From positions 1 to 64,000 of the forward strand of contig JAACJP010000070.1 in NCBI GenBank assembly GCA_013368375.1: 64,000 nucleotides of DNA, in the 5' to 3' direction. Origin of the DNA: Tricholomella constricta (Eukaryota > Basidiomycota > Agaricomycetes > Agaricales > Lyophyllaceae). The position numbers were made by a program, and so were the translations under genes. Below, piece after piece: positions 1 to 49,494 of the stretch (position 1 is its first letter; the number at the start of each line of letters is the position of its first letter). The notes under the pieces are model-generated. The model made no database searches, was not told the origin of the DNA, and worked only from the letters and a program-made list of their open reading frames with translations.

Positions 1-1
1 G

Positions 2-3500: not shown

Positions 3501-3691
3501 TGCGCATACGTATTCCAGTGCGCAGATGAATATTCAAGGTGTATTCACATATTCCAGTGCACGGATACGTACTCAAGGTGTATTCCAAGAGTGCACATAG
3601 CTATTCTAGTGCGCGGATACATATTCGAGGTGTATTCACCTATTCCAGTGCGCGGATACATATTCAAGGTGTATTCCGAGAGGGCGCATAC
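522..3691 (+). repeat. Minisatellite, left arm (52-bp and 39-bp units)
   Basis: Tandem array of a 52-bp unit with the landmarks GTGTATTCCGAGAGTGCGCA, TATTCCAGTGCGCAGATACA and TATTCAAGG. A 39-bp variant lacks exactly 13 bp (CGAGAGTGCGCAT). The 52-bp unit is itself a degenerate dimer of ~26-bp halves. The array is free of stops in the plus-strand frames because 52 is not a multiple of 3 and the unit has few stop triplets, so the reading frame cycles. I do not regard the long open frames as genes. It is interrupted at 3692 by gypsy A and resumes at 25437. Confidence 0.9.
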
Positions 3692-3912
3692 TGTAAGGGC
3701 GCTTACTATCTTATCGACTAATCTGATCTAATCGTATCTTATCGACACGATTATGCTATTGTTTGGCAACACCTTCCAGTGTTGCCTATTTAATCCTTTA
3801 CATTACATAATTAAATAGTAGACCTTGTACACCTATACGTAGCAATCGACGGACTTGTCAAGCTTACGTCTAGCGTGCACAGCAAGGTCCCCAATCTTGT
3901 AACCCCGTTACA
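3692..3912 (+). repeat. 5' LTR of element A
   Basis: TGTAAGGGC...CCCGTTACA. Contains a near-perfect hairpin GGCAACAC/GTGTTGCC. It differs from the 3' copy at four sites (one A/G, one T/G and an adjacent pair CG/GA). Confidence 0.95.
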
Positions 3913-4019
3913 TTTTTTTAAGCTACCTTGCTTTCTATTGTTGCGTACCCACGACGTTACGCAGAACCACATTCCATTTAGAACACCCATCATAAAAGAA
4001 CCCACGAGACTCAGACCTG

Positions 4020-6866
4020 ATGACACCAACTCCCACATCCGGAAAGAGCCGAACTCCGGTCCTCGAGGATGCGCCCATCACAACTTCCACTGCAACCAGT
4101 GGAAGTTGGATCAGTCGCTGGTGGACAAAGTCCACCAGCGCAGAATACACTAGGATTAGAATCGGAGGAACCTTGGCCGATAGCAAGCACCAATGTGCCG
4201 GGGAGCTTGGCCGACGAATTGGCCAGGTCACATCGACCTGGCCCCACGGCAGGAAGCAGATGGCCAGACAGCCGTCTGTCAAGTAGAGCGTTCGGGGCGT
4301 CCACCCTGAGCATAGTCAAGATGGAGTCGGACGAAGACGACTTGTCCGACCCCGAGGCCAATGAAGAAGAAGCCAGCGATAGGGAATTGCTGGCGCTAAA
4401 AGTGAAGCAATTCTGGGACACCACCGATGTTGTTAGCGAACATCGACGAAGACGACTAGAGGAACGAGCGGATAGGCTCGTTCTACGATCAACCGGAGCA
4501 CAGTCCGTTGGAGAAATGGTCGTACAGGAGTATGCCGACCGATACTTGGAAGCGCTGTCCGTAGTAGTTACGGAATACAGGAAGAAGTACCCTAAGGGAA
4601 CTTCGAATTCAGCAGTCAGTTCGATTGCTGGGACTCCTATACCTAGGAAAGCTCCGCTCAACAAAGGAAAAGGTCGTTGGGATGACCTTTTCACTCCTTA
4701 AGCAGTGGCCTCTGGATCGAACCAGCCTCTTGATGAGGCTGCCATGGCAGTATCGGCGCTGCATCAAGCGCGCCAGTTAGGAGAATCTGACAACAATTAT
4801 CGTCGTCGGTCCGCGGCAGCGAAACACGAAAGAATGACTCGTGAAGAGCATCTTGCGCGTTCACAGGGATCCAAATGGGTCCCTGTTAGTGAGTCTACGT
4901 TAGACCCACCCACTGAACGTAAGTATACAACCCCGCAACCAGCTGGCAACGAAAGCCTACCTATGGATGCGAAGGATGGCCGTGTTCCATTAGCGAAAGA
5001 TTGGAGCAACCGGATCGCTTACCAGCGTCTGAGAAATGCTGATCTATCACGGAGCAAGTTCACGAATTATGACGACCAAGGAGTCGTCTTTGAAGGACAT
5101 ATGCCCGTGGATGAGATGGCGAGGCAATGGGCCTCGCAAACTCAAGGTTCGGATGGTGGACTGGGAAATGGGGCCGTCGGAACACATAAGACGATGGCGA
5201 CGGCTAACGGCCGTCAAGACATGCGGGTTCGTATAAGTGACCACTGCCCATGTTCAGCCTCGATTCCAAAGTCGAGGCTATTCAATGCCTGAACCGATTC
5301 GCAGGAGTCAATCAATTGCGGACGGAATACATGCTGCCGGAGAGCAGCATAAAACTAAGATGCACGAACGGTTGCATCAACTGATACACGAGCGACTGGC
5401 TGTACGCCTATCGCTCCCTGATGGAATGAAATCTCGTCGTGCGGACTCAAAGTCCGTAGGCACTTATAGTGGAAGTGCCAAGTTTGGCGAATTGGAAGAA
5501 TGGCTAGCCAGCCTTGTCGTGATGCTGGCCGTGAGCCAGTTTGGAGGAGCAGAACGCGACCAAGAGCGCGTTCTGATAACATCCGAGTTCCTTGATGGTG
5601 AAGCTCGGAAGTGGTACAATCGCCATGTTATCCATGTGAACCGCGAAAAGCAGTCCTGGATGTTTGAAGACGTCATCCTAGGGCTGTACGATCGGTTCAT
5701 GCTGCCCTCAACCATGCAGGACGCTCGTAACGACTTTAACGCCGTTACCTATTCGGCGAGCAAAGGCATACAAGGTCTGTATGATGACCTTGTGGACCAT
5801 GCCATGAATATCGCAGCAAGAACGGACGATTGGACGTTCCTGGAGAAATTCCTCAAGACACTTCCGCGTGAGATGCGGAAGGCATTATTCGATGACGGGC
5901 TATCACCCAAAATCAACACGGCCCAAGAGTTCCTAGCGGTGGGCTTAGCACACCAAGCCACCCAGAAGACGGCTGATTACTTTGAGCGGACCATAACCGC
6001 TCAGCGAAGTCAACCGAGCCAAATGCGGAAACCAGATGGAGGGCGAGTAAACGCTCCACACAATACTTTCAACAGGGCATTTTGCAAAAGATTGCAAACA
6101 GCCCAAGAAACAGCGAGCGTTCCTACGGGCCGCACGTACAGCGGCACCTGACGCAGCAAGTGAGGCGGACGATGAAGATACTTCTCCCGAGGACCCGGAC
6201 GGACGAGACAATGGACGCCCTGATACAGAGGCGGACAATGAAGACGAAGGCAATGAGTTCGTAGATATGGAGGTCTACGAAAATGAATACTATGCTCGGG
6301 ACGATGAGACCGAGCGTATGTTTGCAATGACAGAAGTCATTGCGTCAGAAGAACGCAATGATAAACCACCAAGTCGTAAAGTGAAAGTGCGGACGGGTAG
6401 GGACAAGATTGCTCGTCCCGTAGTTCCGATAAAGGACAAGGAGTGCCTGGTCACCTACATTAATGTAGGTGGACATGAGGCTTGGACCCTCTGGGATTCC
6501 GGGAGTACGACTACTGGACTTACGCCGTCATTCGCTCAAGTGGCCGATATTCGAGTGTTTCCGTTGGAAGATCCATTAATCCTCCAGCTCGGAACTAAAG
6601 GAAGTCGGGCCACAGTAAATTTTGGCACGACGGTGGAAGCCGTTCTTCCAGGGTTTAAAGGCAAGGTTTACATGGACCTTGCTAACTTTGATCGATACGA
6701 CGTGATTATAGGCACGCCGTTTATGCGCGCAAACAACGTCGTGCTGGACTTTAACCGTGACGAAGTTGTCGTCAATGGAGTCGCTACACCAGCGACTAAA
6801 GTAAAAATGGAGGATACCAATGGCCGAGTTAGACGCCATCGGTCATTGGAGAAACGAAGAGAATGA
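4020..6866 (+). pseudogene. gag-protease of element A, degraded
   Basis: Homologous throughout to the intact gag-protease of B (11623-14703), ending at the same UGA-CUA context (6864-6866). Compared with B it has a 14-nt deletion near 4070 exactly at a hairpin. It has a CAA-to-TAA nonsense at 4699-4701, a frame break near 5235, and a loss of roughly 190 nt near 6076 that removes the CCHC zinc knuckle (B residues ~757-770). The aspartic protease part (DSGST, ~6498) is intact in frame. The damage means A cannot make a full Gag. Base composition is like B. Confidence 0.9.
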
Positions 6867-9800
6867 CTAAAAGTCACAGTAGAAGATGATGATGATCCTG
6901 ATAACGAGGGTAGGCCGATAAACAGCCTACCGAAGGATCACCCAGCACTTCTATTATCCGATGAAGAGTTTCAAGAAACTCTTAAGGAAGGGGATAAGCC
7001 ACCTCCGAAGAAGAGAAAACCCCAACGACAACAGCAGAAGGCACAAAACGAGCCTTCGAACGAACGAGCACGGACTCACGAGCCATGCGAAGAACGCCAG
7101 CACGATAATGAAGCGCGTAAGACGAGCGGGGCCGATAAGGATACGGAATCAGAGCCGTATACGAATACGAGTAATCGATCATTTTGGGATAGACCAAATC
7201 CACATCCACAATATGAGTGGATGTTCGACCCACGGATGCCGCAAGAATGGAACGCAGTAATAGCGTCAATGCGGGCTCACGAAGGAAGAAATGTAGGCAC
7301 GCGAGGACAAGCGTACCGAAATCCACGGCCTGAGGAAGTATCGGAGCCAACGGAAATGAATTTTCCGGTGAATATACAACGGGCTAAACGGCCGTTGTAT
7401 CGGTTACCAGTGAAGGATGAGAGTGACTTTGCTCTCGTAAAATTACGAGCTAGGTTTGATGTTAAACCTAGCAATAAAGACACAGCGCACATTCGCGCTG
7501 CAAGAACGGTGAACGGAAAAGGTAAGGCACCCAATGGAGGCCTTACCGCGGAAGATTATCCACGACTTCGCCAGCAATGGCATGACGAATTCGAAGATAT
7601 GGTGGGTGGTACGAAACAACAGCTACCACCCTGGCGGGAAGTCAATCACGAGATTACTCTCATCGATGATGAGAAACAGTACCAGTACCACGCGCCGAGG
7701 TGCCCAATGTCCCTTCGCGAGGAATTCTACGCGAAGGTCAATCGGTATACGGATTCTAAATGGTGGGAGCCTCGTTCGGTGAAGCAAGCAGCGCCGCTGC
7801 TATGTATCCCGAAAAAAGACGGCTCCCTGAGAACACCCTTGGACGCACGGCAGCGTAACGACAACACAATCAAGGACGTTACGCCCTTGCCAGACCAAGA
7901 AATCATTCGCGAGGATGTTGCCAGAGGGAACATACGATCAAAGATTGACTTAACGGATGCGTACGAACAAGTACGCATCCTCGAGAAGGACGTACACAAG
8001 ACCGCCTTTGCAACGATAGCAGGAACGTATGTTAGCAACATAATGCAGATCGGGGACTGTAACGCCCCCGCAACATTTCAACAATTAATGACGTCAATTT
8101 TTCGGGACGTCATTGGGAAGTTTATGCATGTATACTTGGACAACATATTCATATTCTTGAACTCCATCGAAGAACATGAAGATCATCTTCGAGTAGTGTT
8201 CGAACGATTACGCGAACAGTCCCTTTATTTGAAGTGGAAGAAATGCGAACTATATTCGGATTGCGTCGATTGCCTTGGTCATATAATCGACGACCAACGA
8301 ATTCACCCCGACGCCGATAAATTGGCACGGATTCACGATTGGAGGATTCCACGGAATTACAACGATATACAGCGATTCGTTGGACTGGTTAATTATCTGG
8401 GTCAATTCCTCCCAGATATATCCGCGTACACTGGGCCACTAATGGCGATGACCGAGAATGGGTCGCCATTCTATTGGAGACCAATTCATCAACGATGCTT
8501 TGAAATGATAAAGCATATATGTTGCACGATGCCAATTATTCGGCCTATTCAACCGAAGACAGACGAACCAATTTGGATTATATGTGACGCCTCCAAGTCA
8601 GGCGTCGGTGCGATGTATGGTCAAGGACCTACATGGATCCAAGCTCAGCCGGCTGGATTCATGTCCAAAAAATTCACGAATGCACAGCAGAATTACGCCG
8701 TGCATGAACTCGAAACCTTAGCTATCCTCGAAGCATTACTTAAGTGGGAGGATAAACTTGTGGGTTATAAAATCCACATCATTACCGACCACAAAGCCCT
8801 CGAATTCTTTAAGACCCAGGTGAATTTATCACCTAGGCAGCGTCGATGGATGGAATACATGTCGCGATTTAACTTCGACATTACCTATGTGAAAGGCGAA
8901 CTGAATAAAGTCGCCGATTGTCTATCGCGATATTTCGAGAGCGATAACCATCACGATCGTTACGACATCCACGACTTCGTAGCTGCCGATGCTAGAATCG
9001 ATCCTACTGGTGAAGATCTACCAGTACCACGATACCATGGAATCGTGGAAAAAGTAGTTGAGATTCGAGCGATGAAAGACGTAGAAATACGTCGAAGCAA
9101 GCGTCTTCAAGAACGCCAGGAGGATCGAGATGTCGAAGCTCAGATAATGGAGGCTGCGGCACCAAGTATCGCATCCGGACCATCGTCACACCTTCAAAAA
9201 AGCCAGAGGCCAACCGAACGGGAACATACAGTCGGAGATATGGTCCTCGGAAGGGACACAGTTGCCCCTCCCCCAGACAAAACGGACGAGAAGATCCGTA
9301 ACGACGTTATCCTTGGATACCCAAAGGATAAACTATTTTCAGTGATTCTCACTAACCCAACGGACTTTCGTACGTTCACTACGAAAGACAATCTTATTTG
9401 GACCACGAACGCTATAAATGATAGCGTTCTATGCATACCGCGAGAACCCGAGATCATCACGTCAATTGTTGAGCAAGCCCATAAAACCATGGGCCATTTC
9501 GGTGCCGAACGGACTACTGAATATATTCGACGATGGTATTGGTGGCCATCACTAGCCACGACCGTTCGTACGTTTTGTAAAACATGCGAGTATTGCCAGC
9601 AGATCAAGACGTCAAATCAGAAACCGTTAGGGAAACTACATTCCCTGCCAGTACCCACTAAGCCTTGGGACTCTATCGGAATGGACTTTATCGGTCCATT
9701 TCCAGAATCAAAGGGATATAACTACCTATGGGTAGTAATTTGTCGTATGACGAGTATGGTGCATATGATACCCATACATACGACGATGACGGCAGCCCAA

Positions 9801-10766
9801 TTATCATGGGTATACCTACGGGAGATCGTCAGGTTACATGGCCTGCCAAGCTCGATCGTAAGCGACCGAGATTCTAAGTTTACTTCGCGCTGGTGGCGCG
9901 AACTACATAAATTATTAGGAGCTAAGCTTCTAATGTCGACATCTTTCCATCCTCAGACGGATGGACAGACGGAGCGAGCCAATCGTAGTATTGGCCAGAT
10001 ATTTCGCGCCGTTGTAAGGCATGACCAAAAGGATTGGGTAGATCGTATACCCATGGCTGAGTTCGCGATAAATGCGAGCGTATCGGCTACCACCAAGTTC
10101 GCTCCATTTGAGTTGAATGGTGGATACATGCCGTCCATGTTGAAAGAGATACGCTCAGACAGCGTAATACCAAAGGGAATTCGGGAATACGCTGAACGCG
10201 CATTGCAGAACATAGCGGAGGCGCATGACGCTATAATCGAAACGCGCGTATTTCAAACGCGCGAGGCAAACAGGCGTCGATCCACTGGTCCGGAAATAAA
10301 GAGGGGTGACTTGGTATATTTATCTACCAAGAACTTGAACCTTCCCAAGGGACGCGCCCGGAAATTATGTCCGAAATTCGTCGGGCCCTACAAAGTATTG
10401 AAGGCCATGCCAGACACGTCGAACTATACGCTGGAATTACCTACGGCGCTTATGGAGCGTCGAATACATCCAACATTTCACATATCGCTGTTGCGCCCAT
10501 ACTACGCAACAAACGATGCAATGTTCCCTAATAGAACTCACCCGGAGCCCTATGATTTTGGGGCGCCGGACGATCACGAATGGTTTGTCGAAGAGATTTT
10601 GGGCCATAGATGGACCCAAAATAATAAAGTGGAATACCAAGTTAGGTGGAGTCTAGGTGACACCACCTGGGAATCGCACAACAATTGTAACAAGTTAGCG
10701 GCATTGGACCGCTACTTGGAATTGCAAGGGGTGGGCAGCACATCGAGGTTGCCGCGACGAACCTAG
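6867..10766 (+). pseudogene. pol of element A (open, but RT active site YLDN)
   Basis: Open in the same frame as the protease across the UGA stop at 6864-6866, with 118 stop-free codons before the first Met (7221). Domains: reverse transcriptase, RNase H, integrase with an HHCC zinc finger and a DDE core, and a C-terminal chromodomain (around 10573-10730). The RT metal-binding motif YLDD reads YLDN: codon 8142-8144 is AAC where B has GAT. Loss of the second Asp of this motif is expected to abolish polymerase activity. The rest is nearly identical to B, with mostly silent differences, so A was probably active until recently. Confidence 0.9.
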
Positions 10767-10891
10767 AATGTGGCGCGGTCATGTGATCACGGCGATCAGA
10801 AAAATTACATAACCATCAAAAGTTAGGACAGAAGGTTAAATATGTTTTGGCGCTAGGACGCGCAACCAAATTTTCAACCAACAACCACAAC

Positions 10892-11293
10892 ATGTACCCA
10901 ACCGCAGGAGCAAATTCAAGCAACGACGCGACTCGGGGCGGCGACAGCCACACCAACTATCAAAATATGGCCTCGGGATCGAGTCCAAAAGGGGAGGAGG
11001 TGCAGGGACGCGCGGAAAGCGCGCCCCCGCCCCCAACCTATATGGGCGTGCAGCCCCAAGCATTTCAATACCCATCGGTTGGCCATATGAGCCAACTGCC
11101 CCACCAGGGGCAACCGCCCCATCAGGGGCAACAATTATACCCTATGGTTGGCCACATGAGCCAACCGCCCCACCAGGGGCAACAACCACAGACGGGTGGG
11201 TTCTACCCACCGTCGATGGCATATCAACATATGCCATCAATGCAGAGCTTCATGGGGTACCCACCACCGACGTGGTACCCCCAAATGCCCGCC
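10892..11293 (+). pseudogene. ORF3 of element A, 5' fragment
   Basis: Begins at the same ATG context as ORF3 of B (18732). It encodes the Gln/Pro-rich N-terminus with GHMSQPPHQGQQ repeats. The frame is cut at 11293 by insertion of B and resumes at 22263. Allowing for the 5-bp duplication CCGCC, the two halves join in frame, which fixes the insertion site exactly. Confidence 0.9.
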
Positions 11294-11513
11294 TGTAAGG
11301 ACGCCCACTATCTTATCTAATCTTGGTTATCTAATCGTATCTTATCGAGACGATTACGCTATTGTTTGGCAACACCTTCTGGTGTTGCCTATTTAATTCA
11401 TTACATTAATTAAGTATAAACAACCTTGTACACCTATACGTAGCAATCGACAGACTTGTCAAGCTTACGTCTAGTGTGAACAACAAGGTCCCAAATTCTG
11501 TAACCCCGTTACA
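11294..11513 (+). repeat. 5' LTR of element B
   Basis: TGTAAGGACGC...CCCGTTACA. It contains the perfect hairpin GGCAACACC/GGTGTTGCC and ends with GTAAC/GTTAC. It differs from the LTR of A by many substitutions and small indels (sister subfamily). Confidence 0.97.
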
Positions 11514-11622
11514 TTTTTTTAAGCTACCTTGCTTTCTATTGCTGCGTACCCACGACGTTACGCAGACCCACATTCCATTTAGAACACCCATCATCAAAAA
11601 GAACCAACGAGACCGAGACCCG

Positions 11623-14600: not shown

Positions 14601-14703
14601 AGTGGTCGTCAATGGAGTCGCTATACCAGCGACTAAGGTAAAAATGGAGGATACCGATGGCCGAGCTAGACGCCATCGGTCATTGGAGAAACGAAGAGAA
14701 TGA
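11623..14703 (+). CDS. Gag-protease polyprotein of element B
   Basis: 1026 codons from ATG 11623 (reading MTTTPTSGKSR), chosen because the homologous ATG exists in A; the frame is open further up into the LTR. Retrotransposon Gag core at residues ~490-690, CCHC zinc knuckle CFNCGKLGHFAKDC at ~757-770, then a long acidic linker. A retropepsin-like aspartic protease follows with active site DSGS near residue 904 and the flap/ILG-equivalent segment VIIGTPFM downstream. The frame stops at UGA 14701-14703 followed by CUA, and the same frame continues as pol. Function: particle assembly, RNA binding and polyprotein cleavage in the cytoplasm. Many short inverted repeats lie inside the coding sequence, for example ACTTCCACTG (11700) pairing with 11714-11723. 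Confidence 0.95.
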   Translation: MTTTPTSGKSRTPVLEDALTAHPPSQLPLQPVEVGSVAGGQSSPAQNTLGVESEELWPIASTNVPGSLADELARSHRPGPTAGSRWPDSRLSNRAFGASTLSIIKMESDEDDLSDPEANEEEASERELLALQVKQFWDTTDVVSEHRRRRLEERADRLVLRSTGAQSVGEMVAQAYADRYLEALSVVVTEYRKKYPKGTSNSAVSSIAGTPVPKKASFNKGKGRWDDLFTPQAVAAGSNQPLDEAAMAVSALHQARQLGESDDDYRRRSAAAKRERMTREEHLAQPQGSKWAPVSESTLDPPTERKYTTTQAAGDESAPAIQVPMDAKDGRVPLAKDWNNRVAYQRLRNADLSRSKFTNYDDQGVVFEGHMPVDEMARQWASQTQGSDGGLGNGAVGKHNTTATANGRQDMRVRINEPTSHAQPRFQSRGYSMPDPIRRSQSIADGIYAAGEQHKTKMHERLHQLIHERLAVRLSLPDGMKSRRADSKSVGTYSGSAKFGELEEWLASLVVMLAVSQFGGAERDQERVLITSEFLDGEARKWYNRHVIHVNREKQSWTFEDVILGLYDRFVLPSTMQDARNDFNAVTYSASKGIQGLYDDLVDHAMNMAARTDDWTFLEKFLKTLPRDMRKALFDDGLSPEINTAQEFLAVGLALQATQKTADYFERTITAQRSQPSQMRKPDGGRVNAPHNTFNRPRRVYGAVNEKPYVKPAYQDQPGRGEQKPHVEKPAMKTGDRPRYDQPKNHDHHNHPPGEVCFNCGKLGHFAKDCKQPKKQRAFLRAARTAAPDAASEADDEDTSPEDPDGRDNGRPDTEADNEDEGDEFVDMEVYENEYYARDDETERMFAMTEVIASEERNDKPPVRKVKVRTGRDKIARPVVPIKDKECLVTYINVGGHEAWTLWDSGSTTTGLTPSFAQVADIRVFPLEDPLILQLGTKGSRATVNFGTTVEAALPGFKGKVYMDLANFDRYDVIIGTPFMRANNVVLDFNRDEVVVNGVAIPATKVKMEDTDGRARRHRSLEKRRE

Positions 14704-14779
14704 CTAAAAGTAACAGTAGAAGATGACGATGATCCTGATAATGAGGGTAGGCCGATAAACAGCCTACCGAAGGATCATC
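14701..14779 (+). promoter_or_regulatory. Probable stop-codon readthrough signal between protease and pol
   Basis: UGA at 14701-14703 is followed directly by CUA. This is the type II readthrough context known from several plant viruses and mammalian genes. Downstream lies a two-part stem: GATGATCCT (14728-14736) pairs with AGGATCATC (14771-14779), enclosing GGTAGGC (14746-14752) with GCCTACC (14762-14768). Protease and pol share the frame with no other stop. Element A has the same UGA-CUA (6864-6869) and inner stem; its outer stem has one mismatch. Confidence 0.75.
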
Positions 14780-17700
14780 CAGCACTTTTATTATCCGAGG
14801 AAGAGTTTCAAGAAACTCTTAAGGAGGGGGATAAGCCACCTCCGAAGAAGAGAAAACCCCAACGACGACAGCAGAAGGCACAAAACGAGCCTTCGAACGA
14901 ACGAGCACAGGTTGACGAGCCATGCGAAGAACATCAGCGCGATAATGAAGCGCGTAAGACGAGCGGGGCCGACAAGGATACGGAATCAGAGCCGTATACG
15001 AATACGAGTAATCGATCATTTTGGGATAGACCAAATCCACATCCACAATATGAGTGGATGTTCGACCCACGGATGCCGCAAGAATGGAACGCAGTAATAG
15101 CGTCAATGCGGGCTCACGAAGGAAGAAATGTAGGCACGCGAGGACAAGCGTACCGAAATCCACGGCCTGAGGAAGTATCGGAGCCAACGGAAATGAATTT
15201 TCCGGTGAATATACAACGGGCTAAACGGCCGTTGTATCGGTTACCAGTGAAGGATGAGAGTGACTTTGCTCTCGTAAAACTACGAGCTAGGTTTGATGTT
15301 AAACCTAGCAATAAAGACACAGCGCACATTCGCGCTGCAAGAACGGTGAACAGAAAAGGTAAGGCACCCAATGGAGGCCTTACCGCGGAAGATTATCCAC
15401 GACTTCGCCAGCAATGGCATGACGAATTCGAAGATATGGTGGGTGGTACGAAACAACAGCTACCACCCTGGCGGGAAGTCAATCACGAGATTACTCTCAT
15501 CGATGATGAGAAACAGTACCAGTACCACGCGCCGAGGTGCCCAATGTCCCTTCGCGAGGAATTCTACGCGAAGGTCAATCGGTATACGGATTCTAAATGG
15601 TGGGAGCCTCGTTCGGTGAAGCAAGCAGCGCCGCTGCTATGTATCCCAAAAAAAGACGGCTCCCTGAGAACACCCTTGGACGCACGGCAGCGTAACGATA
15701 ACACGATCAAGGACGTTACGCCCTTGCCAGACCAGGAAGTTATTCGCGAAGATGTCGCTAGGGGAAAAATACGGTCCAAAATTGACTTAACGGATGCGTA
15801 TGAACAAGTACGCATCCTTGAAAAAGATGTACATAAAACCGCCTTCGCAACGATAGCGGGAACATACATCAGTAACATCATGCAAATTGGGGACTGTAAT
15901 GCTCCCGCGACATTTCAACGATTAATGACGTCCATCTTTCGGGACGTCATTGGGAAGTTCATGCATGTATACTTGGACGATATATTCATATTCTCGAACT
16001 CTATTGAGGAACATGAAGACCACTTGCGAGTTGTGTTCGAACGATTACGCGAACAATCGCTCTACCTTAAATGGAAGAAATGCGAATTGTATTCGGATCG
16101 CGTTGATTGCCTTGGTCATATTATTGACGACCAAGGAATTCACCCTGACGCCGACAAACTGGCACGGATCCGTGACTGGAGGATACCACGGAATTACAAC
16201 GATATCCAACGATTCGTTGGACTTGTTAACTATCTGGGACAGTTTCTCCCAGATATATCTGCATACACTGGTCCACTAATGGCGATGACCGAGAATGGGT
16301 CGCCATTTTATTGGAGACCAATTCATCAGCGATGCTTTGAAATGATAAAGCATATATGCTGCACAACGCCAATTATTCGGCCGATTCAACCGAAGACAGG
16401 CGAACCAATTTGGATTATCTGTGACGCCTCCAAGTCAGGCGTCGGTGCGATGTATGGACAAGGACCTACATGGATCCAAGCCCAGCCGGCTGGATTCATG
16501 TCCAAAAAATTCACTAATGCACAGCAGAATTATGCTGTGCATGAACTCGAGACCTTAGCTATTCTCGAAGCGTTACTTAAGTGGGAGGATAAACTTGTGG
16601 GCTATAAAATCCACATCATTACCGACCATAAAGCCCTCGAATTCTTTAAGACCCAGGTGAATTTATCACCTAGGCAGCGTCGATGGATGGAATACATGTC
16701 GCGATTTAACTTCGACATAACCTATGTGAAAGGCGAACTGAACAAAGTCGCCGACTGTCTATCGCGATACTTCGAGAGCGATAACCATCAAGATCGTTAC
16801 GACGTCCACGACTTCGTAGCTGCTGATGCTAGAATCGATCCTACTGGTGAAGATCTACCAGTACCACGATACCATGAAATCGTGGAAAAAGTAGTTGAGA
16901 TTCGAGCGATGAAAGACGTAGAAATACGTCGAAGCAAGCGTCTTCAAGAACGCCAGGAGGATCGAGATGTCGAGGCTCAGATAATGGAGGCTGCGGCACC
17001 AAGTACCGCATCCGGAACATCGTCACACCCTCAGAAAAGCATGAGTCCAACCGAACGGGAACGTACGGTCGGAGATATTGTCCTCGGGAGGGACACAGTT
17101 TCTCCTCCCCCAGACAAAACGGATGAAAAGATCCGTCACGACGTTATCCTTGGATACCCAAAGGATAAACTATTTTCAGTTATTCTCGCTAACCCCAGGG
17201 ACTTTCGTACGTTCACCACGAAAGACAATCTCATTTGGACCACGAACGCTATAAATGATAGCGTTCTATGTATACCGCGAGAACCCGAGCTCATCACCAC
17301 AATTATTGAGCAAGCCCATAAAACTATGGGCCATTTCGGTGCCGAACGGACTACTGAATATATTCGACGATGGTATTGGTGGCCATCACTAGCCACGACC
17401 GTGCGTACGTTTTGTAAAATGTGCGAGTACTGCCAGCAGATCAAGACGTCGAATCAAAAACCGTCAGGGAAACTACACTCCCTGCCAGTACCAACTAAGC
17501 CTTGGGATTCTATCGGAATGGACTTTATCGGTCCATTTCCAGAATCAAAGGGATATAATTACCTATGGGTAGTAATTTGTCGTATGACGAGTATGGTGCA
17601 TATGATACCCATACATACGACGATGACAGCAGCCCAATTATCATGGGTATACTTACGGGAGATCGTCAGGCTCCATGGCCTGCCAAGCTCGATCGTAAGC

Positions 17701-18603
17701 GATCGAGACTCTAAGTTTACTTCACGCTGGTGGCGCGAACTACATAAGTTATTAGGAGCTAAGCTCCTAATGTCGACATCTTTCCATCCTCAGACGGATG
17801 GACAAACGGAGCGAGCCAATCGTAGTATTGGCCAGATATTTCGTGCCGTTGTGAGGCATGACCAAAAGGATTGGGTAGATTGTATACCCATGGCTGAGTT
17901 CGCGATAAATGCGAGCGTATCGGCTACTACCAAGTTCGCTCCATTTGAGCTGAATAGTGGATACATGCCGTCCATGTTGAAAGAGATACGCTCAGACAGC
18001 GTAATACCGAAGGGAATTCGAGAGTATGCGGAACGCGCATTGCAGAATATAGCGGAGGCGCATGACGCTATAATCGAAGCGCGCGTATTTCAAACGCGCG
18101 AGGCAAACAGGCGCCGATCCGCTGGTCCAGAAATAAAGGGGGGAGACTTGGTGTATTTATCCACCAAGAACTTGAACCTCCCCAAGGGACGCGCCCGTAA
18201 ATTGTGCCCGAAATTCGTCGGGCCCTACAAAGTGCTGAAGGCCATGCCAGACACGTCGAACTATACGTTGGAATTACCTACGGCACTCATGGAGCGCCGG
18301 ATACATCCAACATTTCATATATCGATGTTGCGCCCATACTACGCAACGAATGATACAATGTTCCCTAATAGAACTCATCCGGAGCCCTACGATTTTGGGG
18401 CGCCGGATAATCACGAATGGTTTGTAGAAGATATTTTGGGCCATAGATGGACCCAAAATAATACTGTGGAATATCAGGTTAGGTGGAGCCTGGGAGACAC
18501 CACCTGGGAACCGCACACCAATTGTAACAAGTTAGCGGCACTGGATCGCTACTTGGAACTACAAGGGGTGAAGAGCGCGTCGAGATTACCGCGACGAACC
18601 TAG
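14704..18603 (+). CDS. Pol polyprotein of element B (RT, RNase H, integrase, chromodomain)
   Basis: 1299 codons after the UGA; the first Met is 118 codons in (15058). Reverse transcriptase with FDD-class motif YLDD at 15970-15981 (residues ~305-308 from that Met). RNase H has IICDASKSG and ITDHKALEFF. Integrase has the zinc finger HKTMGHFG...CKMCEYC and a DDE core (MDFIGPF, IVSDRDSKFTS, and the E in HPQTDGQTERANRS). The C-terminal chromodomain (EWFVEDILGHR...VEYQVRWSL...TWEP) is expected to direct integration to chromatin. Expression most likely needs readthrough of the preceding stop, giving a Gag-Pol minority product. An internal start at 15058 would still include RT but lose the N-terminal linker, and is less likely. 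Confidence 0.95.
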   Translation, partial: LKVTVEDDDDPDNEGRPINSLPKDHPALLLSEEEFQETLKEGDKPPPKKRKPQRRQQKAQNEPSNERAQVDEPCEEHQRDNEARKTSGADKDTESEPYTNTSNRSFWDRPNPHPQYEWMFDPRMPQEWNAVIASMRAHEGRNVGTRGQAYRNPRPEEVSEPTEMNFPVNIQRAKRPLYRLPVKDESDFALVKLRARFDVKPSNKDTAHIRAARTVNRKGKAPNGGLTAEDYPRLRQQWHDEFEDMVGGTKQQLPPWREVNHEITLIDDEKQYQYHAPRCPMSLREEFYAKVNRYTDSKWWEPRSVKQAAPLLCIPKKDGSLRTPLDARQRNDNTIKDVTPLPDQEVIREDVARGKIRSKIDLTDAYEQVRILEKDVHKTAFATIAGTYISNIMQIGDCNAPATFQRLMTSIFRDVIGKFMHVYLDDIFIFSNSIEEHEDHLRVVFERLREQSLYLKWKKCELYSDRVDCLGHIIDDQGIHPDADKLARIRDWRIPRNYNDIQRFVGLVNYLGQFLPDISAYTGPLMAMTENGSPFYWRPIHQRCFEMIKHICCTTPIIRPIQPKTGEPIWIICDASKSGVGAMYGQGPTWIQAQPAGFMSKKFTNAQQNYAVHELETLAILEALLKWEDKLVGYKIHIITDHKALEFFKTQVNLSPRQRRWMEYMSRFNFDITYVKGELNKVADCLSRYFESDNHQDRYDVHDFVAADARIDPTGEDLPVPRYHEIVEKVVEIRAMKDVEIRRSKRLQERQEDRDVEAQIMEAAAPSTASGTSSHPQKSMSPTERERTVGDIVLGRDTVSPPPDKTDEKIRHDVILGYPKDKLFSVILANPRDFRTFTTKDNLIWTTNAINDSVLCIPREPELITTIIEQAHKTMGHFGAERTTEYIRRWYWWPSLATTVRTFCKMCEYCQQIKTSNQKPSGKLHSLPVPTKPWDSIGMDFIGPFPESKGYNYLWVVICRMTSMVHMIPIHTTMTAAQLSWVYLREIVRLHGLPSSIVSDRDSKFTSRWWRELHKLLGAKLLMSTSFHPQTDGQTERANRSIGQIFRAVVRHDQKDWVDCIPMAEFAINASVSATTKFAPFELNSGYMPSMLKEIRSDSVIPKGIREYAERALQNIAEAHDAIIEARVFQTREANRRRSAGPEIKGGDLVYLSTKNLNLPKGRARKLCPKFVGPYKVLKAMPDTSNYTLELPTALMERRIHPTFHISMLRPYYATNDTMFPNRTHPEPYDFGAPDNHEWFVEDILGHRWTQNNTVEYQVRWSLGDTTWEPHTNCNKLAALDRYLELQGVKSASRLPRRT

Positions 18604-18731
18604 AATGTGGCGCGGTCATGTGACCACAGCGATCAAGAAAATTACATAACCATCAAAAGTTATGACAGAAGGTTAAATATGTTTGGCGCTAGACGCGCAA
18701 CCGATTTTCAACCCTCTCAACACAAACCAAC

Positions 18732-21686
18732 ATGTACCCCAGCCAAGTACCAACCTCCAGCAACGACGCGATTCGGGGCGGCGACAGCCGCACCGACCAG
18801 CAAAATTTGAACCCGGGGCCGAGTTCAAGTGGGGAGGGAGCGCAGGGGCGCGCGGAAAATGCGCCCCTGCCCCCAACTTACATGGGCTCGCAGCCCCAAT
18901 TATACCAATATCCTCCGGTTGGCCATATGAGCCAACCGCCCCATCAGGGGCAACAAACATTTCCGACGGTTGGCCATATGAGCCAACCGCACCACCAAGG
19001 GCAACAACCACCTATGGGTGGTTTTTACCCGCCAGGGCTGGCATTCCAACAGATGCCATCAATGGCGGGTTTCATGGGGTACCCGCAACCGACGTGGTAC
19101 CCCCAAATGCCCATGCAGCCTGTACCGCACAATACGCGGTACAACGAATCGGAGAAGATGGAGGTAGACGACCAAAGTCGTCTGCAAGCAAATGTCCCGC
19201 CGGCGCAAGTGGTGCGCGGCGAACCGGTGCGGCAACATGTTGCACCGAATGCAGACGACAAAGCGTCGTCGGCGTCGAGTTCGCGGAGGATGGCAGACGA
19301 TCGTAGAGTATCGCCTGCGTCAAGTTCGAGGAGACCATTCGCAGACGATGGTCTCCTTTCTTCTCTCTTGGATCGATTGGAAGACGCGGGTATTCACCGC
19401 GAATTTTGTGATTTCTTGGACGATGGAATGGCGCAGCTGGTTATAACCCAGCTGCTTGATGCATACGATGGAGTTTGCGCGGATTTGAGACGCGTGAAAG
19501 CGAGAGAAGCGGCCATGGCTGAGCAACTCAGCCTGGCAAGAAAACGGCCGGCAGTAGCATTGCCGGATCGCGGGGAGGGACCATCGTCCCGACCCATAAA
19601 AAGGCAGCAAATGGAGGTGCGTCGAGAAGAACGCACCTCATACGAGCCGCGACGACAAGAGAGGAGCGAGCCCAGGCGTCCGGAACGACGCCTGGAACAG
19701 GAGAATCGGCGGTACAACCGCCACCCCGACCAGGAAGTGTGGCGTGACGAACGCCCACTTGATTATGGTTCTCAACGGGAAGAGCGCCGAGAGGATCAAG
19801 GGACGCGCGAAGTGCGCCCCTTACCTGCTCGAGAAATCGAGCGCACGGCGTCGACATCGTCGACGTCAGCGGAAGCAAAGCCGCAAAACCTATCCGGAGC
19901 GTTACCGCCCCCGGGAGAAAGCCGGGTGCGGAACCCAGAACGAGGTTCTCAGAAGAAGGAACCTGTTGGCAAATATACTTTGCCAGCGCCAGCCCCTGCA
20001 CCACCTAGTACGATGGTGCAGCCCCCAACGCCGCCATCCAAAGGCAAACAGAAGGCATCGGATCCATATGCCGAGGCTATGGATGAATCGGACTGGGGCG
20101 AGTCGTCTGACGACGACAAGCCTGTCAGCAAGAAGAAGGCTGCCGGGCAAAAGCAGCATCGCGAGAATATGGCTCGCAAAGCTGAGAAGGAGATGCCGGG
20201 GCGGATCCCTGACGAGCTCGGGGTGGTCTTCATCAACGACCGCCACGAGAGGGACAACCGTTTTTGGGATATGCTAGTGCGGACGATATATGTATCGTCC
20301 GCCCAGAATCGTGCCTACGCACTAGGCACCGCAGCGCGAGTGTCCGAAAGCGAGTTGGGGACGGGACACAATTCTCGTCCCCCATCGGGACGGCTATATG
20401 CCGTCGCACCACGCGGGTTCCCAATGAACCCTCGTGAAGTTGATCAGTTGTATGCACTGATCAACGATCGGCGCCCCGGCGTGACGGATGAAGAGCGGGC
20501 AGAGGCCTTTATGCTCTTTAGGGAGTTCCGGCGAGTCTCCCTCTCGGTAGCGCCCCATTTGCGCGACCGATCCATGGCTCGAGCAGCCATGGATGAATTT
20601 AGAAGCGTCAACCGACCATTCGATACACGGTCACCCATTTGGCAGGCCGCGCCAATTAGGCGGCCTGGGAGGGCATTCGAATATAGGCCGGACAAGCCTA
20701 CACGAGGCGCTGGCCTGCCTCAGCCAGGCCCCGACCATGCCCTCGATGTCGAGCACTGGTGCCGACATATGATTCACCATGGGCGTATTGGTTCAAAGAA
20801 CCAATACGGAGGAATCATCATGGACTACCGGTTCCGCGTACATAGGCGCGGAACTTGGGGATACTTGTTGGCGAATGTACTAGCGCCAACTACCCACAGC
20901 ATGCGGTCATGGTTCATGCGACTTTTCGCGACCATTACTGCGCGGCCATACCTCTACGCAGAGGCTGTGGCTGCCTATAACGAGGCCAACCCAGATCGGC
21001 CTTTCACACCGATCGAAGGCCCTGAGGTTACCATACCTCGCATCCAAGTGATCCCTCCGGAGGTGCGGATCACTGAACAAGGTGTCTTGCAACACCTTAT
21101 CAACATTGGTATTCCAGTAAGTTGGATACACCATAGCTACACTTATGGTCTACATTATTTGGACCATAACTACTCTAACTCAGGTCCCTATAAGGACCTG
21201 TTCCGCAATGTTGACGACGATCGAGTTCGTCGTCTAGATGAAATGGGTGTTCCGCCCGCCATCCCTGAGTGGGATGGGTGGTACCATCCCACCACCGACG
21301 ACATCACGCGCATCCAAACACTGATGCACGTGGAATTCCAGACCGAATCACTAGACTGTCTAGTGAGTTCGGAATGGATGTTTGTGGGTGAAGACCCACA
21401 CTTCCGAGGACTCCGTGTTCGGGTGGGGGAATATCTCCCCCCAGGCCTGCATCACCCAGCTTCATCGGGATCGACGTCCATCAACGTCGAAATGGCGGAC
21501 CCGGCGGCAGCTATACCTGCCCCCGCGACACCCTCCACAGTCGTGGCAGCTCCAACTGGAGCTACCGAAACCCAAGTGGACCCCGTGTCGGCCCTTACAG
21601 GGCCTTTATCACTGGCGGTGATTACCACCAGCCAGGGTCTGGTGGACAACAACACCACCGACCCCGACACAGTGATGGAGTCATAG
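18732..21686 (+). CDS. ORF3 of element B, unidentified 984-aa protein
   Basis: Starts 128 bp after pol. The N-terminal ~130 residues are Gln/Pro/Met-rich with repeats of VGHMSQPPHQGQQ. Residues ~280-400 are extremely Arg/Glu-rich. A basic stretch SKKKAAGQKQHRENMARKAE near ~470 could be nuclear targeting. The last ~480 residues look globular and are the best conserved between A and B (for example DVEHWCRHMIHHGRIGSKNQ, GLHYLDHNYS). No signal peptide, membrane helix or known enzymatic motif was seen, so an envelope protein is unlikely. Differences from the A copy are largely silent, which suggests selection on the protein. I do not recognise the family. Expression route (spliced or subgenomic RNA, reinitiation) is unknown. 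Confidence 0.85.
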   Translation: MYPSQVPTSSNDAIRGGDSRTDQQNLNPGPSSSGEGAQGRAENAPLPPTYMGSQPQLYQYPPVGHMSQPPHQGQQTFPTVGHMSQPHHQGQQPPMGGFYPPGLAFQQMPSMAGFMGYPQPTWYPQMPMQPVPHNTRYNESEKMEVDDQSRLQANVPPAQVVRGEPVRQHVAPNADDKASSASSSRRMADDRRVSPASSSRRPFADDGLLSSLLDRLEDAGIHREFCDFLDDGMAQLVITQLLDAYDGVCADLRRVKAREAAMAEQLSLARKRPAVALPDRGEGPSSRPIKRQQMEVRREERTSYEPRRQERSEPRRPERRLEQENRRYNRHPDQEVWRDERPLDYGSQREERREDQGTREVRPLPAREIERTASTSSTSAEAKPQNLSGALPPPGESRVRNPERGSQKKEPVGKYTLPAPAPAPPSTMVQPPTPPSKGKQKASDPYAEAMDESDWGESSDDDKPVSKKKAAGQKQHRENMARKAEKEMPGRIPDELGVVFINDRHERDNRFWDMLVRTIYVSSAQNRAYALGTAARVSESELGTGHNSRPPSGRLYAVAPRGFPMNPREVDQLYALINDRRPGVTDEERAEAFMLFREFRRVSLSVAPHLRDRSMARAAMDEFRSVNRPFDTRSPIWQAAPIRRPGRAFEYRPDKPTRGAGLPQPGPDHALDVEHWCRHMIHHGRIGSKNQYGGIIMDYRFRVHRRGTWGYLLANVLAPTTHSMRSWFMRLFATITARPYLYAEAVAAYNEANPDRPFTPIEGPEVTIPRIQVIPPEVRITEQGVLQHLINIGIPVSWIHHSYTYGLHYLDHNYSNSGPYKDLFRNVDDDRVRRLDEMGVPPAIPEWDGWYHPTTDDITRIQTLMHVEFQTESLDCLVSSEWMFVGEDPHFRGLRVRVGEYLPPGLHHPASSGSTSINVEMADPAAAIPAPATPSTVVAAPTGATETQVDPVSALTGPLSLAVITTSQGLVDNNTTDPDTVMES

Positions 21687-22042
21687 GTCGGGGAGACAAC
21701 TTAATCCCCCCGTCAACGAACCGACCTCGACACGTAGGGCGTACCGCCGGGCCGACCGCCATTGTCAGGTGCAGACCACCTGACTCCCGAGGAGCAATCC
21801 GCAGGTTGCGTATTAACGCAACATTGGATGTCCTCACCACCATTCTTTGCCGCACGGCACTTTGAGGCCGTGCAGTGGCGCTAATGCATCCACTACTCGT
21901 TAAGTCAAGAATACGTATTATACCTACGTATTCTTGCATTATTTGATAGGTCTAGGTCGCCGGGACCTAGACCCTCCTTTTACTCTCTTTTTCTGCCCAA
22001 CTCCCTGGTGAAGATCGCTACACGCGATCTTAAAGGGGGGTA
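21687..22042 (+). promoter_or_regulatory. 3' untranslated region of B: chain of hairpins and polypurine tract
   Basis: Non-coding, but made of successive inverted repeats: CAAGAATACGTA (21906-21917) with 21925-21936; GGTCTAGGTC (21949-21958) with GACCTAGACC (21964-21973); AAGATCGC (22011-22018) with GCGATCTT (22024-22031). The last hairpin abuts the polypurine tract AAAGGGGGG (22032-22040), the plus-strand primer site, two bases before the LTR. The corresponding region of A keeps the second and third hairpins, the second with a compensating base-pair change. Confidence 0.8.
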
Positions 22043-22262
22043 TGTAAGGACGCCCACTATCTTATCTAATCTTGGTTATCTAATCGTATCTTATCGAGAC
22101 GATTACGCTATTGTTTGGCAACACCTTCTGGTGTTGCCTATTTAATTCATTACATTAATTAAGTATAAACAACCTTGTACACCTATATGTAGCAATCGAC
22201 AGACTTGTCAAGCTTACGTCTAGTGTGAACAACAAGGTCCCAAATTCTGTAATCCCGTTACA
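22043..22262 (+). repeat. 3' LTR of element B
   Basis: Same as 11294-11513 except two C-to-T differences (in the ACCTATACGTAG and GTAACCCC segments). It is followed by the duplicated CCGCC of element A. Confidence 0.97.
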
Positions 22263-24839
22263 CCGCCCCAACCGTACCGCAAAATACGCGGTACAACGAG
22301 TCAGAGAAAATGGAGGTGGACGACCAAAGTCGTCAAAAAACACCTACTCCACCGGCGCAAGTGGCGCGCAGCGAACCGGCGCAGCAATATGTCGCGCCAT
22401 ATGCAGACGAACAAAGAGGTTCGTTTGCGTCGAGTTCGCGGAGGCCGGCAGACGATCGCGCAGCGTCGTCTGCGTCAAGTTTGAGGAGACCATTCGCAGA
22501 CGATGGTCTCCTTTCGTCTATCTTGGACCGATTGGAAGACGCGGGTATTCACCGCGAGTTTTGTGATTTCTTGGACGACGGGATGGCGCAGCTGGTTGTA
22601 ACCCAGCTGCTTGATGCGTACGATGGAGTTCGCGCGGACTTGAGACGCGTGAAGGCGAGAGAGTCGGCCATGGCTGAGCAACTCAGCCCGGCAAAAAAGC
22701 GACCGGCAGTGGCGTCGCCAGATCGCGGGGAGCGACCATCGTTCCGACCCATGAAAAGACAGCAGACCGAGGTGCGGCGAGAAGAACGCACCTTATATGA
22801 ACCCAGGCGTCAGGAACGACGCCCGGAACAAAAGTATCGGCGGTTCGACCGCCATCCCGACCAGGAAGTGTGGCGTGATGAGCGCCCACTTGATTATGGT
22901 CCTCAACGAGAGGAGCGTCGCAAGGACCGAGGGACGCGCGAAGTGCGTCCCTTACCGGCTCGAGAAGTCGAGCGAAGGGCGTCGACATCGTCGACATCCG
23001 CGGTGCAGGCACCGCAACAGCAACATATAGCGGGAGCATTACTCCCACTACCGACCCCGGGAGAAAGCCGGGTACGGAACCCGGAGAGAGGGTCCCAAAA
23101 GAAGGAACCTGTTGGCAAGTATACCTTGCCGGCACCATCCCCTGCACCACCCACTACGATGGTGCAGCCCCCATCGCCTCCGCCAAAGGGCAAAGGCAAA
23201 CAAAAGGCGTCTGACCCGTACGCCGAATTTATGGACGAGTCGGACTACGGCGAGTCCTCCGACGACGAGAAACCCGTCAGCAAGAAGAAGGCTGCCGGGC
23301 AGAAGCAGCATCGCGAGAATATGGCTCGCAAAGCTGAGAAGGAGGCGCCGGGACGGATCCCTGAAGAGCTTGGGGTGGTCTTTATCAACGGCCGCCACGA
23401 GCGGGACAACCGCTTCTGGGATATGGTGTCGCGGACGGTATATGTGTCGTCCGCCCAGAATCGTGCCTTTGTGCTAGGCACAGCAGCTCGCGTCTCAGAG
23501 AGCGAGCTAGGGACGGGACAAAACTCCCGTCCCTCAGATGGACGGCTGTATGCCGTCGCACCATGTGGGTTCCCAATGAACCCCCGTGAAGTTGATCAGC
23601 TCTATGAGCTGATCAATAACCGACGCCATGGGGTGAGGGATGAAGAGCGGGCCGAGGCCTTTATGCTCTTCAGAGAATTCCGTCGGATCACCCTGTCGGT
23701 CGCGCCTCACTTGCGCGACCGAGCCATGGCTCGTGCAGCCATGGACGAATTCCGAAGCGTCTCACGACCGTTCAGTGAACGGTCACCCATCTGGAATGCC
23801 CCGGTCATTAGACGGCCGGGTAAAGCATTCGAATATCGGCATGACAAGCCGACACGAGGAGCTGGTCTCCCCCAACCCGGCCCAGCTCATGCATTGGATG
23901 TCGAACATTGGTGTCGACATATGATTCACCATGGGCGTATTGGTTCTAAGAACCAATATGGAGGTATCGTCATGGACTACCGGTTCTGCGTTCATCGTCG
24001 CGGGACCTGGGGATACTTACTGGTGAACGTATTGTCGCCAGTAACTCATAGTATGCGGGCATGGTTTATGCGAATCTTCGCAACCATCACCGCACGGCCA
24101 TACTTCTATGCAGAAGCGGTGGCGGCCCATAACGAGGTCAACCCTGATCGGCCGTTCACGCCGATTACCGGACCCGAGGTTATTATCCCTCGGATCCAAC
24201 CTACCGCTCCCGAAGGGCGGCTGACGGAACAAGGTGTCCTACAACACCTTATTAACTGTGGTATTCCAATTAGTTGGATAAACCACAGTTATACTTATGG
24301 TCTACACTATTTAGACCATAACTACTCTACTGCAGGTCCTCATAAGGACCTGTTCCACAATGTTGACGACGATCGCGTGCGTCGACTCGATCAATTGGGC
24401 GTGCCACCCGCCATTCCGGAATGGGACGGGTGGTACCATCCCACCACCGACGACATCACGCGCATTCAAACGTTAATGCGCTTGGAGTTTCAGAACGAGG
24501 GGCTGGATTGTTTATCCAGCGTGGAATGGATGTTTGTGGGTGAAGACCCACATTTCCGAGAACTCCGTGTTCAGAGAGGGGAGTTTCCCCCTCCGGACCT
24601 GCACACTCCCGCTCCATCGGGATCGACGTCTACCAACGTCGAAATGGCGGACCCGGCGGCACTCACAGCCTGCCCCCGCGACACCTTCCACAGTCGTGGC
24701 AGCTCCAATAGGAGCTACCGAAACCCAAGTGGACCCCGTGTCGGCCCTCACAGGGCCTCTATCACTGGCAGTGATTACCACTAGCCAGGGTCCGGTGGAA
24801 TCCAACCCCACTGACCCCGACACAGTGATGGAGTCATAG
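22263..24839 (+). pseudogene. ORF3 of element A, 3' fragment
   Basis: Continues the frame interrupted at 11293 and is collinear with residues ~135-984 of ORF3 in B. A one-base gain near 24665 (an extra base before CCTGCCCCCGCGAC relative to B) shifts the last ~60 codons. The original frame is still legible to the stop at 24837-24839. Apart from this, the conserved globular part is open, so the gene decayed late. Confidence 0.9.
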
Positions 24840-25215
24840 GTTGGGGAGACAACTTAATCCCTCCGTCAACGAACCGACCTCGACACGCAGGAGGTATCGT
24901 CGGGATGACCGCCATTGTCAGGTGTAGACCACCTTACTCCCGAGGAGCAACCCGCAGGTCGTGTACTCAAATATACGCAACACCGGATGTCCTCAATCCC
25001 ATGCCACCTCGGGCGGCACTTGGAGGCCGTGTAGTGGAACTATTGTCTCCACTATGTATTCGGTCATGAATACGTACCAGTAATACGTATTTCTTTGCAG
25101 GCGATATTGGGTGTAGGTCGCCGGGACCTACACCCTCCCTCTTGCCTTAATTTTATTATTACTTATTGCATTACTCCCTGGTGAAGATCGCTACTAGCGA
25201 TCTTAAAGGGGGGTA
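24840..25215 (+). promoter_or_regulatory. 3' untranslated region and polypurine tract of element A
   Basis: Homologous to 21687-22042. Hairpins GGTGTAGGTC (25110-25119)/GACCTACACC (25125-25134) and AAGATCGC (25184-25191)/GCGATCTT (25197-25204) are kept. The polypurine tract AAAGGGGGG ends two bases before the LTR. Confidence 0.8.
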
Positions 25216-25436
25216 TGTAAGGGCGCTTACTATCTTATCGACTAATCTGATCTAATCGTATCTTATCGACACGATTATGCTATTGTTTGGCAACACCTTC
25301 CGGTGTTGCCTATTTAATCCTTTACATTACATAATTAAATAGTAGACCGTGTACACCTATACGTAGCAATCGAGAGACTTGTCAAGCTTACGTCTAGCGT
25401 GCACAGCAAGGTCCCCAATCTTGTAACCCCGTTACA
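25216..25436 (+). repeat. 3' LTR of element A
   Basis: 221 bp, four differences from the 5' copy. It carries the perfect form of the LTR hairpin (GGCAACACC/GGTGTTGCC). Followed by the second copy of the duplicated target CATAC. Confidence 0.95.
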
Positions 25437-49365: not shown

Positions 49366-49494
49366 GCAGAATAGACTCATCCCAGAGACCCGACAAGGTT
49401 GACGAGTCAAGCCCTCGCGCCGAAACACGTGTTCGCCGCGCGCAGCATTGTCAGACGCCCGTTCGCTTCGACCGTCGCTAAGTCCCGTCTCGAG

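Follow-up and report, generated by a model that had tools for sequence, protein, structure and literature searches.

Two nested LTR retrotransposons in the window

The window analysed here is a 64,000-nucleotide stretch of the Tricholomella constricta genome (GenBank assembly GCA_013368375.1, contig JAACJP010000070.1, positions 1 to 64,000, forward strand). It contains two long terminal repeat (LTR) retrotransposons of the Ty3/gypsy type, an outer element A and an element B nested in it, and a short perfect hairpin occurs about every 100–125 bases along the coding sequence of both. This hairpin excess depends on synonymous codon choice and is, in our view, best explained by selection that acts on silent sites to maintain structure.

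The LTRs, ORFs and hairpin-dense parts of A and B are given below on the plus strand. Element A is bounded by LTRs at 3692–3912 and 25216–25436, which have TGT...ACA ends, differ at 4/221 positions and are flanked by a 5-bp target duplication (CATAC). Element B (11294–22262, 10,969 bp) carries 220-bp LTRs at 11294–11513 and 22043–22262 that differ at 2/220 positions, and it is flanked by the 5-bp duplication CCGCC. The small number of LTR–LTR differences suggests that both insertions are probably young. Thus both elements have the paired LTRs, TG...CA ends and 5-bp target duplication of Ty3/gypsy elements. A satellite array of 52/39-bp units flanks A on both sides (about 490–3690 and 25590–27420, the right-hand part partly inverted), and A appears from this arrangement to have inserted into the array.

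The gag-like open reading frame (ORF) of B (11476–14703, first in-frame ATG at 11623) contains the CCHC knuckle characteristic of Ty3/gypsy gag (residues 805–821) and ends in a TGA codon at 14701–14703. The open pol frame (14704–18603) continues directly after it in the same frame, which suggests that the gag–pol switch may occur by stop-codon readthrough. Within the pol frame, the ATG-initiated ORF at 15058–18603 matched reverse transcriptase (RT), RNase H, integrase and SH3_Tf2-1 in Pfam, with RT, RNase H and integrase in the Ty3/gypsy order. No aspartic protease was matched by Pfam in the gag and pol ORFs of B that were scanned, positions 14704–15057 lying outside that scan; a chromodomain match at the C-terminus of B pol (E 0.00095, 19.5 bits) was under the cut-off of 25.1, and A pol gave no such match. 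The pol ORF of A lies at 7221–10766 (1181 amino acids).

A third ORF of B, ORF3 (18732–21686, 984 amino acids), had no Pfam match, and its predicted structure was not usable (mean predicted local distance difference test score 35.6). Three protein relatives were found, all from Lyophyllum, one of which (P0123) is named tannase/feruloyl esterase, perhaps through a mis-joined gene model. The corresponding ORF of A was split by the B insertion, and its 3′ part lies at 22310–24784. By eye, no primer site of an obvious tRNA type was seen right after the 5′ LTRs (11514–11540 and 3913–3940; TTTTTTTAAGC...), and a polypurine tract, AAAGGGGGG, stands just before the 3′ LTR. Scanning the window with Rfam and for tRNAs gave no matches.

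Hairpin excess and its dependence on codon choice

Hairpins were defined as perfect stems of at least 8 bp with loops of 3–20 nt, and their numbers were compared with the average over 30 shuffles that preserve dinucleotides. A and B together contained 112 such stems against 4.3 in the shuffles, an excess of ~26-fold, with 32 (expected 1.4) in the internal sequence of A upstream of the B insertion (3913–11293), 60 (expected 2.1) in the internal part of B (11514–22042) and 20 (expected 0.8) in the internal sequence of A downstream of that insertion (22263–25215). A sequence-only reading of this DNA had put the chance rate at one stem per 4–5 kb, in agreement with the 4.3 expected in 20.9 kb, and all 11 hairpins that it listed were found where it had placed them with both arms exact. 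Examples are a 12-bp stem with a 4-nt loop in A (4081–4108), and in B an 11-bp stem with a 3-nt loop (11668–11692) and a 12-bp stem with a 7-nt loop (21906–21936).

The same reading had not seen this density in C, a further Ty3/gypsy element in the window, or in the P-like genes. The C region (48832–60551) was indeed near chance (six stems compared with 2.6 in shuffles). At 28–48.8 kb, 35 stems were counted, although 22/35 contain CCGCGG, a separate local repeat, and masking this motif left 13 stems compared with 5.5 in shuffles. Positions 60552–64000 had two stems (0.6 shuffled), and the left satellite (1–3690), a tandem repeat, had eight (1.1 shuffled). The density of CCGCGG was 5.6 per kb in 28001–48800 compared with 0.09–0.34 in the elements. 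The palindrome TGCCGCGGCA is present in 24 copies in 28001–48800 and is absent from both A and B, from the C region and from the left satellite; part of this repeat sequence lies in an inverted array pair (29.6–30.0 and 43.1–43.6 kb, 97% complementary).

The codon-shuffle control, named in the sequence-only reading as one of the tests that could refute its claim, was then applied using 300 shuffles per ORF that preserve protein, codon counts and dinucleotides (stems of at least 8 bp, loops 3–16 nt). We counted 16 stems in B gag (null mean 0.96, maximum 4), 19 in B pol, 21 in B ORF3, 15 in A pol and 14 in the 3′ part of A ORF3, the null maximum being 5 for each of the last four; null means across the five ORFs were 0.9–1.6 and maxima 4–5. 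A set of 100 shuffles of two kinds agreed with this outcome. The hairpin excess depends on synonymous codon choice, and the claim of an ordered structure over the whole element, written through that choice, gained support from these shuffles and from the folding energies below.

Hairpins wholly inside ORFs make up 56/60 of those in B, and A and B have 4.3–5.8 perfect stems of at least 8 bp per kb. When non-overlapping hairpins of at least 7 bp were considered, B had 104, irregularly spaced with a median of 80 nt (coefficient of variation 0.71). For stems of at least 6 bp in A and B, the excess was 6–11-fold at loops up to 12 nt, less than 2-fold at 13–19 nt and none at longer loops; stems of at least 8 bp showed an extra small excess at loops of 25–39 nt (12 compared with 2.8). 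The loops were enriched in adenine (0.344 of 569 nt compared with 0.280). The codon register that sets third bases opposite one another was under-represented, at 17/86 for stems of at least 8 bp (p 0.003) and 40/154 for stems of at least 7 bp (p 0.027) compared with 362/1047 in shuffles, and stems ended at positions where a silent fix was possible in 51/148 cases compared with 1361/2994 in shuffles. As the third-facing-third register leaves the fewest silent choices, its under-representation, together with the stem-end bias, fits a process acting via silent sites.

Folding energy along A and B

Folding energies of 350-nt fragments were compared with those of dinucleotide shuffles. The excess was 24.0% for A and 25.1% for B, positive in 29/29 and 30/30 fragments respectively, compared with 3.4% (20/29 positive) for C, whose low value is in line with what the sequence-only reading had claimed. 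In a separate test of 300-nt ORF fragments against a codon-preserving null, A and B gave 23.7% with 50/50 fragments positive, and C gave 5.5% with 14/16 positive. Escherichia coli rRNA showed an excess of 5.6% (11/12 fragments of 350 nt positive). RNA phage genomes are folded, and six of them (Leviviricetes: MS2, fr, Qbeta, SP, PP7 and AP205) gave 19.5–31.9%, similar to A and B. The plus strand exceeded the minus strand slightly, with 24.0 compared with 20.1 for A and 25.1 compared with 22.5 for B; a plus-strand advantage of like margin was present in 5/6 phages, and the strand difference in the ORF-fragment test was not significant (p 0.19).

Hairpins in other copies and other elements of the genome

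In the host genome (44.1 Mb, 118 contigs), 39 of 1209 candidates were scored as matches to B pol. Each of the 30 family copies that were read, one of them the B of the window, had 30–35 stems of at least 8 bp per 6.5 kb (shuffles 0.4–1.9). By contrast, 30 RT fragments from elements outside the family (28 C-like, at 94.8–97.1% to C pol, and two at 52–54%) had 0–5 stems per 3.3 kb (shuffles 0.2–1.9), a few being slightly above chance. Thus these fragments lend no support to hairpin density as a general trait of the Ty3 elements of this host. An ORF3 copy (L061) with 96.5% identity to B had 16 such stems. One copy (G000:C57:38063-44705, partly L023) has a B-type pol (99%) followed by an ORF3 with 84% identity to B, the identity of A-type copies, and so looks like a recombinant of the A and B subfamilies.

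Conservation of stems and variation among copies

In the comparison of A with B, four-fold sites differed at 23/249 positions within A-defined stems of at least 7 bp compared with 216/1177 outside, and at 25/283 compared with 214/1143 for B-defined stems, so that divergence in stems was about half that of other sequence. A significant slowdown was also seen at codon positions 1 and 2 of A-defined stems. Hairpins of at least 8 bp were fully paired in the other element in 28/49 cases for A and 27/56 for B (gapped ones, four in B, excluded). Of the double changes at true partners, 17/23 kept Watson–Crick pairing in both elements, compared with 0/18, 0/12, 2/10 and 2/13 when partners were slid by −6, −3, +3 and +6 respectively; as A and B each served as reference, shared pairs are counted twice in this tally; a separate count gave 11 distinct pairs. 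For example, the A counterpart of a 10-bp hairpin in B (21949–21973) is changed on both sides of one pair with all 10 pairs kept. Where the other element had exactly two broken pairs, the changes were on one arm in 6/12 cases and on both arms in 6/12. Stem divergence was also slower in L061 (0.006 compared with 0.040, and 0.023 compared with 0.037).

Fixed A–B differences fell in stems less often (10/155) than the stem share of sites (715/5142; p 0.004), whereas young singletons were proportional to that share (23/164), the contrast over all sites being p 0.028; L023, L029 and L030 were kept out of the B clade here. Stems thus do not seem to be cold spots for mutation in the host, and changes within them seem to be removed over replication cycles.

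We also asked how new variants affect pairing, again leaving L023, L029 and L030 out of the B clade. In a first test, columns were excluded if good B copies numbered under 20, if the local alignment was poor, if there were more than two alleles or if the A family lacked a single state, and variants in more than 20 copies, not being safely polarised, were left unused. Among 207 derived singletons, 11 gained and 46 lost pairing (random 4.5% and 22.7%). However, young C-to-T type variants in L001–L030 were concentrated at CpG (115/161, CpG accounting for 998 of about 3290 cytosines), as expected if the copies are CpG-methylated; because of this load the test was redone without CpG, and its apparent exclusion of a mutational origin was downgraded. 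Non-CpG derived variants in up to 20 copies gained pairing in 9/133 and lost it in 20/133 cases (random 4.6% and 22.1%), and those in 2–20 copies showed one gain and five losses of 29 (random 5.9% and 20.9%). We estimate that a mutational balance would require a gain share of about 19%, and the observed share was lower (p 6e-5). As most singletons probably arose after insertion, reverse transcriptase was only partly tested by these variants.

Interpretation of the hairpins

We favour, with little more than even confidence, the reading that A and B are members of a single LTR retrotransposon family of the Ty3/gypsy type, in which silent codon choice sets short perfect hairpins, likely selected to fold the RNA along its whole length. 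On this reading selection rather than mutation would maintain the hairpins, and the genomic RNA would be the selected molecule. Many small stem-loops, each dispensable, would keep little RNA single-stranded and so leave little for antisense strands, Argonaute loaded with small interfering RNA (siRNA) or the host RNA-dependent RNA polymerase (RdRP), a mode of working thought to apply to genome-scale ordered structure in RNA viruses. Such a fold may guard against antisense pairing, siRNA-guided silencing or attack by nucleases, and it may also help to compact the RNA into virus-like particles; the least certain part of the argument is what the fold is for, shielding or packaging. The host genome has matches to Piwi-domain and RdRP genes and cytosine methyltransferase-like matches, which make silencing pressure on the element plausible.

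Several observations weigh against this reading. Were RNA the folded molecule, a change to G-U would be expected to be tolerated better than a change to another mismatch. No such wobble tolerance was found in A/B stems of at least 6 bp, in which substitutions to G-U, A-C and transversion mismatches stood at 0.60, 0.59 and 0.60 of expectation, or in stems of at least 8 bp (0.45, 0.54 and 0.60), so that plus-strand wobble, which we looked for as proof of RNA, is not available as such. E. coli rRNA had too few stems to serve as a wobble control (G-U 4, A-C 0), and RNA phages were used instead: in two phage pairs G-U reached 1.15 and 1.18, A-C 1.04 and 1.02, and transversions 0.74 and 1.06. Single internal mismatches in A/B stems were A-C in 67 and G-U in 35 cases (shuffles 23.5 and 18.2), compared with 47 and 67 in phage stems (p 0.0004 for the contrast), although the A and B counts, coming from homologous elements, are not independent; in longer stems of the B ORFs alone they were 19 and 6. 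None of 21 tetraloops in A and B was GNRA or UNCG, compared with five GNRA in 33 in the phages. In the conservation data, the slowdown at codon positions 1 and 2 was not significant for B-defined stems, the singleton–fixed contrast was not significant with third positions alone (p 0.44) or with stems of at least 8 bp (p 0.16), L061 showed no double change, and the diverged lineages compared were two, A and B, whose counts overlap by homology, plus L061. Finally, pol has 1325 protein relatives, including Phanerochaete, Trametes, Mycena, Agrocybe and Phlebia among the 120 matches listed, and no DNA of such relatives from other species was found in the viral contigs or genome contigs searched.

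The folded molecule could thus be RNA, cDNA or duplex DNA. We favour RNA because A and B resemble RNA phages in the size of the folding excess, in the strand difference and in the shortness of the loops; near-equal strands also occur in the phages, so the near-symmetry of A and B is compatible with RNA. The A-rich loops would suit RNA and, as T-rich loops on the other strand, DNA. The sequence-only reading had proposed RNA structure or cruciform DNA, with packaging, stability or an interplay with RNA silencing as possible roles; the ordered structure itself was supported, whereas RNA over DNA is a tentative choice, G-U being no better tolerated than A-C and internal mismatches leaning to A-C.

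Alternative explanations

Chance, composition and codon usage are rejected as the cause of the hairpins, as both dinucleotide- and codon-preserving shuffles lie far below the observed counts. An artefact of base composition, dinucleotides, codon usage or repeated motifs is accordingly of negligible probability: the CCGCGG repeat does inflate the counts at 28–48.8 kb, but it is present at only 0.09–0.34 per kb in A and B, where nothing speaks for such an origin and codon-preserving shuffles give 0.9–1.6 stems per ORF compared with 14–21. In another proposal the hairpins are dispersed packaging signals, with Gag recognizing many stem-loops along the RNA much as the coat proteins of MS2 and satellite tobacco necrosis virus recognize theirs; packaging signals are the subject of two papers (PMC6281560 and PMC4751978). 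The 104 hairpins of at least 7 bp at a median of 80 nt in B, the CCHC knuckle in the gag ORF and the similar folding of RNA phages are consistent with it, but the loops share no common motif by base composition or tetraloop class (no motif search was made) and the spacing is irregular, and we think this role improbable.

Two further explanations place the process in DNA or in its copying. Selection could act at the DNA level, on the minus single-stranded cDNA present after RNase H digestion or on cruciform-prone duplex DNA. This would agree with a constraint that treats G-U and A-C alike, with internal mismatches that favour plus-strand A-C (equivalent to minus-strand G-T), with the almost equal folding of the two strands and with the lack of GNRA/UNCG tetraloops. 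It agrees less well with the stem-end mismatches, which lean the opposite way to plus-strand G-U (G-U 21 and A-C 11 of 106; null 12.7% and 19.2%), with the slightly larger folding excess on the plus strand and with the similar small strand difference of RNA phages. Why the cDNA of a retrotransposon should require closely packed hairpins is not clear to us, and we consider selection on DNA unlikely. A mutational ratchet, in which reverse transcriptase or a host polymerase copies one arm of an imperfect hairpin from the other by template switching, perfecting palindromes that need have no use, and protein constraint limits the changes to silent sites, would account for Watson–Crick-only stems, the equal suppression of all mismatch types, short loops and restriction to one element family, and stems do end where a silent fix is less available. 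Nevertheless, the new non-CpG variants were not clearly pair-making, in what is a partial test, the even split of the two-broken-pair cases between one arm and both arms gave no sign of one-step copying, and RNA phages likewise have their excess in short loops; we regard the ratchet as unlikely too, and a little more doubtful. Taken as one broader proposal, a structure code acting on DNA, whether wobble-free hairpins fold the cDNA or both strands or reverse transcriptase perfects them arm from arm, is possible, if still on the unlikely side. If true, retrotransposon coding sequence would evolve as linked palindromes under protein constraint.

Relation to known structured genomes

The preferred reading, a selected RNA fold, likens A and B to genome-scale ordered RNA structure (GORS), with many consecutive small stem-loops in coding sequence and a folding energy above that of shuffled controls all along (59/59 fragments, and 50/50 with the codon null). 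Published folding-energy excesses are 7.5–10.7% for hepatitis C virus and about 15% for SARS-type coronaviruses, and the highest then recorded for a vertebrate RNA virus was 23.4%, according to the available part of the source (PMC7642675), compared with 24–25% for A and B under a similar but not identical protocol. The carrier of GORS is an RNA virus, whereas here it is an LTR retrotransposon, with stems that are nearly all Watson–Crick. GORS pairings are also described there as poorly conserved between related viruses; by contrast, 28/49 and 27/56 hairpins were fully paired between A and B, a less distant pair than the viruses in that comparison. Given the conserved pairings and the retrotransposon carrier, we regard the structure of A and B as GORS-like in its working but not as strict GORS.

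RNA phages share with A and B the concentration of stem excess in short loops as well as the folding excess. However, they have 22 perfect stems of at least 8 bp in 23.4 kb, A and B being about 4.6–6 times denser, and G-U changes are freely accepted in phage stems, which show no overall slowing of divergence, whereas A/B stems diverge more slowly than other sequence. Ty1 and Ty3 of yeast are, like A and B, LTR retrotransposons with structured RNA regions, and were compared by their published description: stable structured regions account for up to 30% of the RNA, a mosaic of stable and dynamic regions, and no family-wide silent-site hairpin pattern is reported in the available part of that account (PMC11381356). 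Element C and the Agaricomycete pol relatives, fungal Ty3/gypsy elements of the chromovirus type, have pol domains similar to those of A and B, but C differs in its near-chance hairpin counts.

Among the titles and abstract openings listed in a literature search, with subscription journals thinly covered, there was no report of genome-wide hairpin folding in an LTR retrotransposon. Such folding has so far been discussed for RNA viruses, and here it is seen at the level of RNA phages in an LTR retrotransposon family. The presence of A and B beside the Ty3/gypsy element C, which shows almost no such folding, in a host with RNA-silencing genes, provides a natural paired test of the purpose of the structure. 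Taken together, our results suggest that structural constraint can act on silent sites in a transposon, in which case dating and selection tests that assume their neutrality would be affected.

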